DNA of 64,000 bases from Candidatus Hermodarchaeum yapensis. GTDB lineage: Archaea > Asgardarchaeota > Hermodarchaeia > Hermodarchaeales > Hermodarchaeaceae. Below are positions 11,634 to 59,947 of the stretch, in pieces. How positions within the stretch are numbered: position 1 is the first letter of the stretch; the number at the start of each line of letters is the position of its first letter. The stretch covers positions 49,174 to 113,173 of the forward strand of contig JAEOSK010000004.1 in assembly GCA_016840405.1 (NCBI GenBank), given 5' to 3'. The position numbers and the translations under genes were made by a program. The notes under the pieces are model-generated. The model saw only the letters and a list, made by a program, of their open reading frames with translations, was not told where the DNA came from and searched no databases.

Positions 11634-11828
11634 TTATTCTAGTTTGACCTTGACGGCTTTGAGGCCGCGGTCGCCTTCTTCAACTTCAAAGGTGACTTTG
11701 TCGCCTTCGTTGAGGACCTTTTCGCCTTCGACTTCGCTTCCGTGAACAAATACGTCTGTTCCGGATTCTCGTTCGATGAAGCCGTAGTTTCGGTCGCGGT
11801 TAAACCATTTGACAGTTCCTTTTTCCAT
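11634..11828 (-). CDS. csp: Cold-shock domain protein
   Basis: [33 protein letters not shown] (RNP1/RNP2 motifs). Confidence 0.95.
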
Positions 11829-12101: not shown

Positions 12102-12950
12102 TTAAAAATCCATTACGGGTTTAGGAACCACGATTTCTTCTTTCGGTGCGGCTAGTTTCAAGGCTTCATTGATGATATCTAGAGCTTTTTCGCGGTTATT
12201 GGGATCGATAGCGACCATTCCGTAGGCTTTGATGCCCAGAATCCGTTGCACTAGCTGGGGAGACAAGGCGCCGGGTAGATCTTGTTTATTGGCAATAGCG
12301 AGGAGCTCTGCTGCAATGTCTTTGCGGCGGATTAGATCGATGATATCTTTACTGTTCAGGACATTTTCAAGGGTCGAGTCAGTAACGAGGAGGATAATTC
12401 GGCTGCCACGGAAGTAGAGTTCCCAGAGTTTACGGAAGCGGTCTTGTCCAGCAAAGTCCCAGGTGGAGATTTCGTAGGTGCCAATACGAGCGCCTTCGAT
12501 TTTTTGGATGTCAATGGCGATGGTCGGGACATAGCTTGTGGGAGGAACGCCGCCATTTAGAAGAGTAACCAGGGTGGTTTTCCCGACGCCACCGTAGCCG
12601 ATGATGCTGACTTTTAAAGTAGTGACAACGTAGTCGTCAACCTTCGCCATGAAGTCTTCGTATTCGACCTCGTAGCTGATAACACGACGAAATTCATAAG
12701 TAACACGATCGAGCTTTTCGCGGAGGGTATCATCGTCGTCTACACTTTCTGCACAAAGTACGACCACACCGCGTCCTAGGGGTTTACCGATGTATTTGAT
12801 GGGACCAATTTCCTCGATAAGGGAATCTTGGGCCTCTTGGACGCGGCCAGCGAAATCTTGCATTTCACCTTGATTGATGGTGATAATCCAGAATTTCTTC
12901 TGAACGACGATTTCGTCTCGTGCGTCAATGATGAAAACGTGGTGTATCAT
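12102..12950 (-). CDS. Arf/Ras-superfamily small GTPase with about 110-aa N-terminal longin/roadblock-like domain
   Basis: G1 GYGGVGKTT, G3 WDFAGQ, G4 NKQD; N-terminus MIHHVFIIDARDEIVVQKKFW... resembles longin-like openings. Confidence 0.85.
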   Translation of the reverse strand: MIHHVFIIDARDEIVVQKKFWIITINQGEMQDFAGRVQEAQDSLIEEIGPIKYIGKPLGRGVVVLCAESVDDDDTLREKLDRVTYEFRRVISYEVEYEDFMAKVDDYVVTTLKVSIIGYGGVGKTTLVTLLNGGVPPTSYVPTIAIDIQKIEGARIGTYEISTWDFAGQDRFRKLWELYFRGSRIILLVTDSTLENVLNSKDIIDLIRRKDIAAELLAIANKQDLPGALSPQLVQRILGIKAYGMVAIDPNNREKALDIINEALKLAAPKEEIVVPKPVMDF

Positions 12951-49738: not shown

Positions 49739-50647
49739 TTAGGTGGTAGGAAGAGCGAGGTCAGGAAGTAGCTTGTTTAATACTGGATTGACTTTAACTC
49801 GATGTAGATTGAAGCCCATCTTGTCTGGTGAAATTCCTAGGGCTAGATTCAGTAGCTCGGGGTAGTAAAAAACTGGGAGTGGTGTTTTATCTTCTGTATC
49901 GCGGAGGGCAAGACGTTGCATGAGATCAAACTGCAGTGTACAGGCTGGGCAAATTACTACTAAGGCCTCAGCACCTGCAAATTTCATGTTTTCTAGCTTG
50001 TTACCTGTCATTTTGAGAGCCATGTCTTTGTCTGCTGGACGGGTACCATATCCGCAACAATCCATTTCATCTGGATATTGGACAGTTTTGGCTCCTAGGG
50101 CGCGAACAAGTTGGTGAAGAATGGTTGGTCGTTGGGCATCATCAACGTTGAGGAGGTTACTGGGTCGAAGAATATGACAGCCAATATGAGTGGCGACCAC
50201 GAGGTCATTTAAGGGAAGGGCCACTGACTCGGCGATGGTTCCCAAGCCAATGTCTTCGAAGAGAAATTGGATGAAGTGCTTGACCTGAATGGTTCCCTTG
50301 TATTCATGTCCAGTTTTGGAAAGAATAGTGTTGACTTTTGCGCGGAGTTCTGCGTCTTCCTGGAGGCATGCTGCTGTTCCTTTGAGCGCTTCAAAACAGC
50401 CGTTACATGGTGTGAGAATGTTAAGTCCCTTTTCTTCAGCAATGGCAAGGTTTCGGGCGGAGATTGCTAGAGCTGCTTCATGGTCAATATGAGAAAGGGT
50501 TAAGGGATTTGGGCAACAGGTGAAACCAGAGATATCTTGGGTGGAAATCTCAAAATAACTAAGCGTTTCACGCATGGCTACTTCCATGTAGGGTAATCGG
50601 TTGGGGATAACACAACCCATGTAAAGTGCCCACGGTGTATCTGCCAT
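49739..50647 (-). CDS. hdrB: Heterodisulfide reductase subunit B-like
   Basis: YMGCVIPNRLPYMEVAMRETL...FTCCPNPL...ATHIGCHILRPSN...DCCGYGTRPAD. Confidence 0.95.
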   Translation of the reverse strand: MADTPWALYMGCVIPNRLPYMEVAMRETLSYFEISTQDISGFTCCPNPLTLSHIDHEAALAISARNLAIAEEKGLNILTPCNGCFEALKGTAACLQEDAELRAKVNTILSKTGHEYKGTIQVKHFIQFLFEDIGLGTIAESVALPLNDLVVATHIGCHILRPSNLLNVDDAQRPTILHQLVRALGAKTVQYPDEMDCCGYGTRPADKDMALKMTGNKLENMKFAGAEALVVICPACTLQFDLMQRLALRDTEDKTPLPVFYYPELLNLALGISPDKMGFNLHRVKVNPVLNKLLPDLALPTT

Positions 50648-51204
50648 TAAGCTTCCCCTCCTTCTTGAATGGCTTCATCAGCTGCCTTCAGGGCAGCCTT
50701 GTGTTCTTTGATTTTTTTCAATCGTGATAACAATTCGGTTGCCTTTGCGATTGTATGTAAATCCTTCTTACCCTTCTCTTCCAGCGGGATCGGGGGAAGT
50801 CCCAATTCAACACGGCGTTTATTCGCTGATTCGCTTGGTGCAAGGGCCCACCCGGTGGCAATAATGTTCTCAACTTCAGAGACGATATCGTCGGGCGTCA
50901 CCCCCAATTCACTGGCTAGATTCTGCAGGTCTTGGACGAGTTCAGAAACGGGGACCTTCTGAGGACAGTGTTCCAGACAAGCATGACAGCTCGTGCATAA
51001 CCAGAGGCTAGGCTGCTCGAGTAACTTGGAAGCCTCACCTTCCAACGTCGCTCGAACAATTCGGCGAGGATGATAGAGTTCACCGTCGGTAATTCGGGAT
51101 ACGGGACAGGCACTGACACATGAACCACACTGGAAACAGCTTTTCGTGTCAACCCGTTTGGCCAGTTTCTGGGCTATCTCCTCAAGGCGTTCTTCCACAT
51201 CCAT
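50647..51204 (-). CDS. hdrC: Heterodisulfide reductase subunit C-like
   Basis: SCFQCGSCVSACPVSRITDGELYHPRRIVRATLEG...LWLCTSCHACLEHCPQ. Confidence 0.95.
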   Translation of the reverse strand: MDVEERLEEIAQKLAKRVDTKSCFQCGSCVSACPVSRITDGELYHPRRIVRATLEGEASKLLEQPSLWLCTSCHACLEHCPQKVPVSELVQDLQNLASELGVTPDDIVSEVENIIATGWALAPSESANKRRVELGLPPIPLEEKGKKDLHTIAKATELLSRLKKIKEHKAALKAADEAIQEGGEA

Positions 51205-53750
51205 TACGCCTTCACCTTCGCTGATTTGGTTTTTGCCTTCGCTTTCGGCTTTGGCTTGGGCTTTTCTCTTTTTGTGAGCCGGGTAATACGCTTCTCAATC
51301 TCCGGGCGAAGTCGTTCATTCTCTTCAACGATAAAATCGCGTCCCATTTCTTTGAGTTGTTCAGCCATCTCCGTTGTGACTGTTGCCCATTTGTCCCCTT
51401 CTGCAGCGGAAACCCACTCCAATCGGAACCGTCGTGGATCCATGCCAATCCGCTCCAGATACGCTGACATCCGGTTTGCGCGCTTCTCAGCCCATACATT
51501 CCCCGTAATGTAGTGGCAATCGCTACCAGTTTCGGTGAGACGACACCCAGACATTAACACCATTCCAGCTCCAAGCCGGAAAGCTTCCAAAATGAATTGA
51601 TCCGACATACGCCCTGAACACATAACGCGAATGCCACGCACGTTTGTTGGATAATTATAACGACTAATTCCGGCTAGATCCGCCCCTGCATAACTACACC
51701 AGTTGCACAGCATGGCGAAGATTTTGTCTTCAGGATTGTCTTTCAATAGCGCTCGAATTTGGTCCATAATCTGAGCATCGGTGAAATGCATCTGTGTAAT
51801 TGCATTCGCAGGGCATTCAGCTACGCACGTTCCACAGCCATGGCATTTTGCGGGGGTGACGTAGGCAGCGGTTCCGGGATCAGCGGTGATAGCACCATAG
51901 GCGCAGCGTGATACGCAGATACCACACTTTCCAGTGGCGCTTCGGCATAACTCCGGATTGACGACTGCTACAATGGGTTCAATTTCCCATTCATCTTGAG
52001 TAATAATTCGAAGGGCACGAGCAGCAGCGGCGCTTCCTTGGGCGACGCTTGCGGGAATATCTTTGGGTCCTTGAGCAGAACCGCAGAAAAAGACACCTTC
52101 GGTGGCTGCGTCGACAGGTTTGAGTTTGGGATGAGCTTCCATGTAGAAACCAGAGGGGCCAACGGGAACATTGAGAACTCGTGCAAGATCCTCTGTCCCT
52201 CGACTGGGTACTGCGGCTGTGCTGAGGATGACCATTTCAAATTCGCGCTTAGTGGGCTTCCCAGTTGCCATGTCTTCAGCGCGGACCCATAGGTTGTGGG
52301 TCTTGGGATCTTCTGTGATTTCTGCAGGACGTCCTTGTTGGAAGCGGATACCGGCGCGTCGGGCTCGTTGATAAAATTCTTCATAGTCTTTGAAGTTGGT
52401 GCGGATATCCATGTAATAGATTGTGATTTCTGCGTCGGGGTATTTTTCGTGGAGGAGGAGGGCGTTTTTGATGGTGTACATGCAGCAGAAGCCAGAACAG
52501 TAAATGTTGGATCGTTCGTCGCGGCTTCCAACACATTGGATAAAGGCAAAGCTGTGAGGTTTAGCTTCATCTGAGGGTCGAATGACTTTGCCCTCAGTTG
52601 GTCCTGCGGCATTGATGAGCCGTTCCAGCTCCATTGCCGTAATCACATTGGGATAGACACCATAACCATATTCTGTGATGGGAGTAGGGTCGTAGGGTTC
52701 GTAGCCAGTGGCTACAATGATTGCACCGATGTCAAACTCATGGATTTTCTCGGTGTCATCGGGGAGAATGGCTTCTTGTCCTGCTTTGTTACAGGCATCG
52801 TAGCACATCATGCACTCTTTGGGGCTTAAGCCGAGGCAGTGGTCGGGATCAATCATGTAAGCTGCAGGCACAGCCTGTGGGTAGGGGATGTAGATGGCGT
52901 GTCGCCATCCGAGGTTGGCATCAAAATTGTTGGGAACTAATACCGGGCAGACTGTTTGGCAGTCACCACAGCTGTTGCATTTATCAATGTCCACATATCG
53001 GGGTCGTTGATTAACTTGCACCTTGAAATTACCAACAAAACCCTCAACTCGAGTAACTTCTGCATTAGTAATGAGTTCAATATTGGGATGCCGAGCTGCT
53101 TCTGCCATTTTTGGACCGAGAATACAGATTGAGCAGTCGAGGGTGGGAAAAGTCTTATCAAGCAAAGCCATGATGCCACCGATTGTGGGTGACCGCTCTA
53201 CTAAGTAGACTTTGTAACCAGCATCAGCAATATCAAGTGCAGCGTGAATACCTGAGACTCCACCACCGATAACAAGCGCTGTATGGGTAACCGGAACTTT
53301 GAGCACTTCAAGAGGTTCTAGGTGGTGGGCCTTGGCGACAGCACTGGCAATTAGGTCAGCAGCTTTGACTTGGCAACCTTCAGGATCGCTGGCATGACAC
53401 CAGGTTCCTTGATCGCGAATATTCGCCATTTCAAAGAAGAATTGGTTAAGTCCTGCGTCTTCGGTAGTTCTTCGGAAGGTGGGTTCATGCATTCGAGGTG
53501 TACAAGCAGCAACAACCACGCGGTCAAGCTTTTCTTCTTTCACTATACGCTTGATTTCTTCTTGACCGGGGTCTGCACAGGTGAATTTGTTCACTTTCGT
53601 TGCTACGACACCGTCGAGTTTTGCTGCACCTTCTGCTAGCGCGTTGCAGTCAACGACACCCGCGATGTTGCGTCCGCATTCACAGACAAAAACGCCAATT
53701 CGGGGTTTCTCTTCTATAGGTTTCTTAGCTTTTGCGATGGCGGCCACCAC
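51204..53750 (-). CDS. hdrA: Heterodisulfide reductase subunit A with C-terminal MvhD-like domain
   Basis: IGVFVCECGRNIAGVVD...GGGVSGIHAALDIADAGYKVYLVERSPTIGG; C-terminal FAMLCNWCSYAGADLAGISRYNYPTNVRGIRVMCSGRM...GAGMVLMSGC. Confidence 0.95.
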   Translation of the reverse strand: MVAAIAKAKKPIEEKPRIGVFVCECGRNIAGVVDCNALAEGAAKLDGVVATKVNKFTCADPGQEEIKRIVKEEKLDRVVVAACTPRMHEPTFRRTTEDAGLNQFFFEMANIRDQGTWCHASDPEGCQVKAADLIASAVAKAHHLEPLEVLKVPVTHTALVIGGGVSGIHAALDIADAGYKVYLVERSPTIGGIMALLDKTFPTLDCSICILGPKMAEAARHPNIELITNAEVTRVEGFVGNFKVQVNQRPRYVDIDKCNSCGDCQTVCPVLVPNNFDANLGWRHAIYIPYPQAVPAAYMIDPDHCLGLSPKECMMCYDACNKAGQEAILPDDTEKIHEFDIGAIIVATGYEPYDPTPITEYGYGVYPNVITAMELERLINAAGPTEGKVIRPSDEAKPHSFAFIQCVGSRDERSNIYCSGFCCMYTIKNALLLHEKYPDAEITIYYMDIRTNFKDYEEFYQRARRAGIRFQQGRPAEITEDPKTHNLWVRAEDMATGKPTKREFEMVILSTAAVPSRGTEDLARVLNVPVGPSGFYMEAHPKLKPVDAATEGVFFCGSAQGPKDIPASVAQGSAAAARALRIITQDEWEIEPIVAVVNPELCRSATGKCGICVSRCAYGAITADPGTAAYVTPAKCHGCGTCVAECPANAITQMHFTDAQIMDQIRALLKDNPEDKIFAMLCNWCSYAGADLAGISRYNYPTNVRGIRVMCSGRMSDQFILEAFRLGAGMVLMSGCRLTETGSDCHYITGNVWAEKRANRMSAYLERIGMDPRRFRLEWVSAAEGDKWATVTTEMAEQLKEMGRDFIVEENERLRPEIEKRITRLTKREKPKPKPKAKAKTKSAKVKA

Positions 53751-53954: not shown

Positions 53955-54506
53955 TCAAAAAGTCCTGGCGGCTGACTCGGGAGTGGGATATCGTTCAGCG
54001 AGGATTTCTGTAACGATTTCGAATATTTCTTGCACCCCATCTCCATCTTTGGCTGAAGCCTCTACAAAGGGGGCACTATATCTGGCAGCATATTCGATTC
54101 CCTCTTGGAGTGTTACTAGTGGTTGACTTCGCCCATAGGCTGTACGGAGATCTGCCTTATTTCCCACAATAACGATGGGACAATCCGTCACTGATTGTTT
54201 CAAATGCCTGATCCAGTCGTCGAGTCGTTCCATAGTGTATCGACTCGAAATGTCAAAAACGGCAATAGCGAGCCGAGCCCCTCTAAAATAGGACATGGCA
54301 AGATCTCGGAAGCGAATTTGTCCTGCAAGGTCCCAAATCTGGAGTGTTGCTTTCCATTTGCCATATTCAATGTTTTTTGCGGCGAAGTCCACACCCACTG
54401 TGAGTTTCATATTTTCGTCAAAAGTGTTCCAGGTGTATCGTCTAAGGAGGCTTGTTTTGCCCACACCGCCTTCGCCGATAAATAAAATTTTGAGTATCCC
54501 AATCAT
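53955..54506 (-). CDS. Rab/Ras-like small GTPase
   Basis: GEGGVGKTSLLRRY, WDLAGQIRF, VGNKADL, EASAKD. Confidence 0.95.
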   Translation of the reverse strand: MIGILKILFIGEGGVGKTSLLRRYTWNTFDENMKLTVGVDFAAKNIEYGKWKATLQIWDLAGQIRFRDLAMSYFRGARLAIAVFDISSRYTMERLDDWIRHLKQSVTDCPIVIVGNKADLRTAYGRSQPLVTLQEGIEYAARYSAPFVEASAKDGDGVQEIFEIVTEILAERYPTPESAARTF

Positions 54507-59371: not shown

Positions 59372-59947
59372 ATGTCACTAAACGAACACACGTTCAAACT
59401 CGTTGTCATTGGGGACCCCATGGTCGGTAAAACAAGCATAATTAATCGATTTATCACAAAGACATTTAATCACGAATATTTGCAGACTCTCGGCACCCAA
59501 CTCAATTGCCATGAGGTAGTTGTAGGTGATGTGCTGATTCGATTAATCATCTGGGACCTGGCGGGACAACCGCGATTTGAGAGTGTGCGGAAGCTCTATT
59601 TTCTGGGGAGTGACGCGGTATTAGTCGTGTTTGATTTAACCCGGGCAGAGACTTTTGATAACATTGAGGGATGGTTACAAGCCTTTCGAACTGCAGTTCC
59701 GGATGAAGCACCAAGTGTTCTTGTGGGAAACAAAGTAGATTTGGATTCAAGACGGGTGATATCCAGGGCGGAGGCGTATCAACGGCACATCAATTTGGAA
59801 TTTGACAACTACTTTGAGTCGTCGGCTCGTTCGGGGGAAAATGTGGGAGAGCTGTTTGACCAGGTTACACGGTTGTTGATTTATAATCGGTTGGCGGAAC
59901 TTCGTGAACGTTTAACGCCTTTCATCTATTCATCATTCGCATCCTAA
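59372..59947 (+). CDS. Rab/Ras-like small GTPase
   Basis: IGDPMVGKTSIINRF, WDLAGQPRF, VGNKVDL, ESSARSG. Confidence 0.95.
   Translation: MSLNEHTFKLVVIGDPMVGKTSIINRFITKTFNHEYLQTLGTQLNCHEVVVGDVLIRLIIWDLAGQPRFESVRKLYFLGSDAVLVVFDLTRAETFDNIEGWLQAFRTAVPDEAPSVLVGNKVDLDSRRVISRAEAYQRHINLEFDNYFESSARSGENVGELFDQVTRLLIYNRLAELRERLTPFIYSSFAS

Follow-up and report, generated by a model that had tools for sequence, protein, structure and literature searches.

A predicted longin-GTPase fusion in a Hermodarchaeote belongs to a separate, widespread Asgard GTPase family often encoded beside a conserved partner gene

We analyzed a 64,000-nucleotide stretch of DNA (the window) on contig 58 of a 2.7 Mb, 86% complete genome of the Hermodarchaeota, an Asgard lineage. 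An open reading frame on the minus strand (12102..12950) starts with ATG, is open under translation table 11 and encodes a 282-aa protein, here labeled P0001. The preliminary description had placed an ORF here without giving its strand, and the gene proved to be real. Orthologues were found at 91-93% identity within the genus and 72-76% within the family, and homologues from other Asgard families, at about 36-41%, could be aligned from residue 1. Since such orthologues and cross-family homologues exist, the ORF is not a chance one. The genome itself contains five family members including P0001 (100, 69, 43, 49 and 33% identity). Within the chain, a predicted longin domain at residues 1-108 (12627..12950, minus strand), delineated by an AlphaFold (AF2) model, profile matches and hhalign, precedes a small GTPase domain at residues 110-270 (12141..12623, minus strand), delineated by Pfam and by Foldseek/VIA matches. 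P0001 orthologues and conserved neighbors were present on four Hermodarchaeota contigs. The divergent neighbors kept beside the orthologues encode a metallo-beta-lactamase-fold protein, a thioredoxin-like protein and a helicase, none of which suggests a function. By eye, we also noted, downstream of the longin-GTPase gene, a small ORF of cold-shock-domain-like type (about 11634-11828, minus strand) and, at 49739-53750 (minus strand), three adjoining ORFs resembling the heterodisulfide reductase subunits HdrB, HdrC and HdrA.

The motifs of the GTPase domain were read from the sequence and compared across 58 aligned homologues. The G1 motif (P-loop) is GYGGVGKT at residues 118-125 (12576..12599, minus strand), with G118, G123 and K124 invariant. 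Switch I reads PT(143)I, and its T143 is likewise invariant. G3 is WDFAGQ at residues 164-169 (12444..12461, minus strand), with G168 and the catalytic-type Gln169 invariant, and G4 is NKQD at residues 221-224 (12279..12290, minus strand), with K222 and Q223 invariant. The G5 position holds instead the family-typical VAIDP (246-250). With G1, the switch-I Thr, G3 with its Gln and G4 NKxD all present, P0001 has the defining features of a small Ras-superfamily GTPase; the G1, G3 and G4 motifs previously noted in the C-terminal 170 or so residues were all recovered, and the switch-I Thr can be added to them. Since K124, T143, Q169, K222 and Q223 are invariant, established GTPase chemistry implies that P0001 should bind and hydrolyze GTP, and by its motif set it should be a hydrolysis-competent enzyme. 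A paralogue elsewhere in the family (L005:132-1139) keeps the longin domain and has a decayed G1 (GYEGTGKTD) and a G4 of AYKQEQ in place of ANKQDL; judged by these motifs it is likely a pseudo-GTPase.

Several features of the GTPase domain resemble Arf. Pfam matched residues 111-242 best to Arf (E 3e-19), followed by Roc (2e-16) and Ras (1e-13), and the motifs NKQDLPGA, PTI and R-x-LW are Arf-resembling. The best Foldseek/VIA matches of the whole model were Arf and Rab structures (Z about 22, rmsd 1.8-2.4), and the Asgard ArfR1 structures 8oum and 8ouk were among the fold matches. P0001 thus shares its best Pfam family, NKQDLP, PTI, LW and the fold match to 8oum/8ouk with Asgard ArfR and with eukaryotic Arf, Arl and Sar proteins, as these are presented in the available text of PMC12554972 (citing Vargova et al. 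2025). If P0001 were a true Arf/ArfR relative, it might recruit coat-like complexes, and its adaptin-like longin domain would descend from an ancestral coat adaptor and survive as a fused remnant; the Arf-type Pfam match and motifs, as well as the adaptor sigma chains that are the best matches of the longin domain, speak for such an origin. Strongly supported branches nevertheless part the GTPase from Arf/ArfR, the G3 motif is WDFAGQ and not WDVGGQ, and a longin domain stands in place of the N-terminal amphipathic helix of Arf. We therefore regard the coat-adaptor origin as very doubtful.

The phylogenetic position was drawn from two trees, in which human sequences served as reference points only. 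In the first tree, which comprised 64 G domains with RagA as the sole Rag, Arf, ArfR, Ras and Rab were set apart from almost all longin-GTPases by a 98/99 branch, and RagA fell inside the longin-GTPase family on a branch of length 5.2. This placement was an artefact, because it was gone once RagC and nine Asgard Rags joined RagA in the second tree. There, the longin-GTPases and their single-domain cousins formed one clade (100/99) and the Rags a separate one (99/96), with Arf/ArfR, represented by few ArfR rows, and Ras/Rab lying apart. The P0001 GTPase is a member of its own well-supported Asgard clade, outside Arf/ArfR, Rag and Ras/Rab, and the term Arf-like therefore denotes a likeness in motifs and Pfam score, not membership. 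The earlier designation as an Arf/Ras-type GTPase holds for the motifs and the best Pfam family, but it does not hold for descent, as the trees put the domain outside both groups. Arf/ArfR membership was rejected on the separating branches and on the longin domain whose last helix precedes the G domain. Rag membership was rejected on the separate Rag clade and the lack of a C-terminal roadblock domain, the AF2 model of P0001 ending about 12 low-confidence residues past the G domain. P0001 did not match PF04670 (Rag/Gtr) in the Pfam search, whereas some homologues do. A scan of viral contigs returned only four distant GTPases, with three closely eukaryote-like Arfs (L118-L120), one of which was used as a tree reference. 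Two Lokiarchaeal Arf-type GTPases (L123, L127) carry a different N-terminal extension of about 160 aa and cluster with Arf/ArfR, and the window itself encodes two Ras/Rab-like single-domain GTPases (53955-54506, minus strand; 59372-59947, plus strand).

The fold of the N-terminal domain was assessed on an AF2 model of P0001 built from 60 Asgard homologues (mean pLDDT 88; about 88-96 across residues 1-108). DSSP assigned E2-8, E14-19, H27-40, E44-48, E51-58, E61-68, H73-91 and H97-107, that is, the order b-b-a-b-b-b-a-a, which opens with strand 2-8 and has no N-terminal helix. According to the available text of Tran et al. 2024 (PMC10933270), roadblock domains have an N-terminal helix, whereas longin domains lack it and have a second C-terminal helix. 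The preliminary description had proposed a longin/roadblock-like domain in the first 110 or so residues, and the modeled topology is that of a longin; a model resembling neither fold, the outcome named there as refuting the proposal, was not obtained. Residues 1-109 of P0001 itself reached no Pfam family above its cut-off, Clat_adaptor_s included. A profile of 26 longin-GTPase N-domains from Asgard archaea (A2) matched AP-3 sigma (2.3e-5), AP-2 sigma (1.4e-4) and delta-COP (2e-3), with weaker matches near 0.1 to mu chains, zeta-COP, VAMP7 and MglB, while a reversed-sequence control covering most A2 sequences matched nothing better than unrelated helical proteins (E 0.013). A profile of the Hermodarchaeal N-domains alone (A3) reached PDB longins at E about 0.1 only; adaptor sigma/mu chains made up 11/15 of its matches, aligned from residue 1. 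Comparison by hhalign tied the N-domain of the P0001 group to those of other Asgard longin-GTPases (E 1.7e-14, probability 98%; reversed nulls below 1%). Two N-terminal regions unlike longin (L054, L094) were excluded from the N-domain sets. Pfam searches with the 26 single A2 members gave Clat_adaptor_s for 10, Fuz_longin_1 for 6, Longin for 3 and Sybindin for 2. Fold searches with the whole model were occupied by GTPases, so the absence of longins from those lists is uninformative, and single-sequence AlphaFold on residues 1-108 alone (pLDDT 46) was too poor for a fold search.

Because the N-terminal helix is missing, two C-terminal helices are present, the profile matches sigma chains and the reversed control is negative, residues 1-108 are predicted by model and profiles to be a longin rather than a roadblock domain. 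The comparison with longins and adaptor small chains, which had been proposed as a check, came out in favor of AP sigma and against roadblock. Some observations would fit an MglB-like roadblock domain, making the protein a Rag/MglA-like switch: MglB appeared in the profile search (E 0.07), a roadblock profile from the same genome aligned to the longin core (E 3e-4), and Tran et al. 2024, in the available text of PMC10933270, rate the structural class as most similar to Rag. That alignment, however, began only at profile residue 31, no roadblock match in the genome fell on a longin-GTPase gene, the 25 families with the most A2 members matching did not include Robl_LC7, and the Rag GTPases form their own clade. 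The topology already mostly refutes a roadblock/LC7 identity for the domain and the switch built on it, which we consider scarcely credible. P0001 resembles Rag/Gtr in that its GTPase is fused to a domain of the longin/roadblock superfamily, and the two are grouped by structure in Tran et al. 2024 (PMC10933270, available text); it differs in that Rag has its roadblock domain C-terminal and in lying outside the Rag clade. With the longins of adaptor sigma/mu chains and of delta- and zeta-COP it shares the element order and the best profile matches from residue 1, although these eukaryotic longins have no GTPase in the same chain.

Longin-GTPase fusions as such are not new, and P0001 is a further member. 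Such fusions with an Arf-like GTPase were reported in Lokiarchaeum by Klinger et al. 2016, as summarized by Dey et al. 2016 (PMC4917890, available text), and 26 longin or roadblock fusions were counted among 74 GTPases of MK-D1 in the available portion of Tran et al. 2024 (PMC10933270). The forms longin-GTPase, roadblock-GTPase and longin-GTPase-roadblock are already listed for Asgard archaea in what is available of these two sources. Like the Lokiarchaeum and MK-D1 fusions, P0001 has an N-terminal longin followed by an Arf/Rag-like GTPase in one chain; unlike them, it comes from a Hermodarchaeota host. What is new is a separate, widespread Asgard GTPase family that often adjoins a conserved, undescribed partner gene. 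Neither the pairing with a partner gene nor a clade separate from Arf, Rag and Ras/Rab was found in the accessible portions of the literature searched, which was mostly open-access and lay outside Klinger 2016 and Vargova 2025, and the sigma-adaptin-like signal of the longin domain was not found in the available text of PMC4917890 and PMC10933270.

Sampling of 18 Asgard family groups turned up proteins bearing the N-terminal domain in 12 (f1-f7, f9, f11, f12, f14, f18) and single-domain cousins alone in three more; f10, f15 and f17 had no member at the threshold used, and it is the f17 genome whose ArfR genes are clearest. Near the homologues, a gene recurred that encodes a protein of 360-430 aa with no Pfam family, whose N-terminal domain (MPxGxxVxRWD...) is conserved and which gave weak winged-helix matches. 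Among its 60 copies from 39 genomes, this partner gene was within 2 kb of a longin-GTPase gene in 24, which span nine Asgard families, within 200 bp in 17 and on the same strand in 22 of the 24; copies include L011:2568-3861, L039:2512-3822, L045:2368-3450, L049:193-1269 and L007:5749-6861, among others. By a rough estimate, with about three longin-GTPase genes per 3-Mb genome, well under one pairing is expected by chance, and beside the 26 single-domain relatives the partner gene was found in no case. The partner N-domain may be longin-like, as hhalign aligned it with longin weakly but in register (E 0.0019, probability 15%, better than the nulls at 0.12-0.16). In one Asgard family (f3; L078-L080), the chain continues past the GTPase into a second longin domain (hhalign E 1.7e-5). 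P0001 has no adjoining partner gene and its orthologues are likewise solitary, whereas its paralogue on contig 14 of the same genome (L011:1501-2370) does adjoin one. One Hermodarchaeal longin-GTPase paralogue has immediately upstream of it a second conserved protein, of 300 aa (L011:562-1479, L068:1363-2262, L067:1002-1937, L069:4732-5649), whose gene overlaps the longin-GTPase start by 4 bases in L066-L068 and whose N-part shows a weak likeness to the partner family.

Platforms of longin or roadblock type control small GTPases, as in MglA-MglB, TRAPP-Rab1 and Ragulator-Rag, and they do so throughout eukaryotic trafficking. By analogy, we lean towards P0001 being a GTP switch that carries its own longin platform for dimerization or effectors. 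The longin domain sits where true Arf proteins carry their membrane helix. It would dimerize either with a second copy of itself or with a partner's longin-like domain, for example that of the longin-like/winged-helix protein; the longin pair would form a platform seating the GTPase domain, and the GTP state would control assembly of the complex. Partner adjacency and the second longin domain in relatives point to such longin-longin pairing. Counting against the platform are the lack of a partner gene beside P0001 itself, the weak longin likeness of the partner N-domain and the E of only about 0.1 at which Hermodarchaeal N-domains by themselves reach PDB longins. A longin/roadblock dimer holding a small GTPase is common to the three known systems and would operate likewise in P0001; in those systems the platform and the GTPase are separate chains or are otherwise joined.

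Longin domains are also known to fold back on SNARE motifs, and in the foremost alternative the domain could act as an intramolecular lid that blocks effectors until GTP is loaded and needs no partner. P0001 and its orthologues are solitary, and the interdomain linker is very short, helix 97-107 running into strand 110-117 in the AF2 model, both of which would suit a lid; yet many family members adjoin the conserved partner or bear a second longin domain, and we consider this arrangement unlikely. The longin could instead be a mere localization or oligomerization tag on a protein that works away from membranes, for instance in gene regulation or polarity. Winged-helix-like regions in the partners (weak matches) favor a tag, and so does the lack of a visible membrane anchor in the P0001 sequence, where neither a prenyl cysteine, an N-terminal glycine nor an amphipathic helix was seen. 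The winged helices of ESCRT-type proteins need not bind DNA, however, and nothing found links P0001 to DNA, so that a tag seems quite unlikely. Returning to the longin platform, the family may, more tentatively, be a dedicated Asgard two-component longin module: a longin-GTPase of its own clade and a longin-like/winged-helix protein, their genes adjoining in many lineages and partly fused in a single lineage, would form a heterodimeric longin platform with a built-in GTPase, in a layout comparable to TRAPP or Mon1-Ccz1, and P0001 would be a solitary paralogue with partners encoded elsewhere.

Domain content by itself suggests, as had been proposed, a relevance of the fusion to the origins of eukaryotic trafficking, and a trafficking or membrane role of P0001 would be conjectural; Dey et al. 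2016, in the available text of PMC4917890, caution against inferring a trafficking role from such fusions. The family joins an adaptin-like longin to a GTPase and so bears on the question of where eukaryotic longin/roadblock platforms came from. Together with its partner it offers a concrete protein set for testing how GTPases are regulated in archaea closely related to eukaryotes. Among the Lokiarchaeal members are longin-GTPases of 620-660 aa (L082:115-2106, L058:394-2325, L081:519-2390) whose linkers are long and proline-rich and whose C-terminus is helical; one of them gave a CdvA-like coiled-coil match below the threshold (E 2.8e-5).
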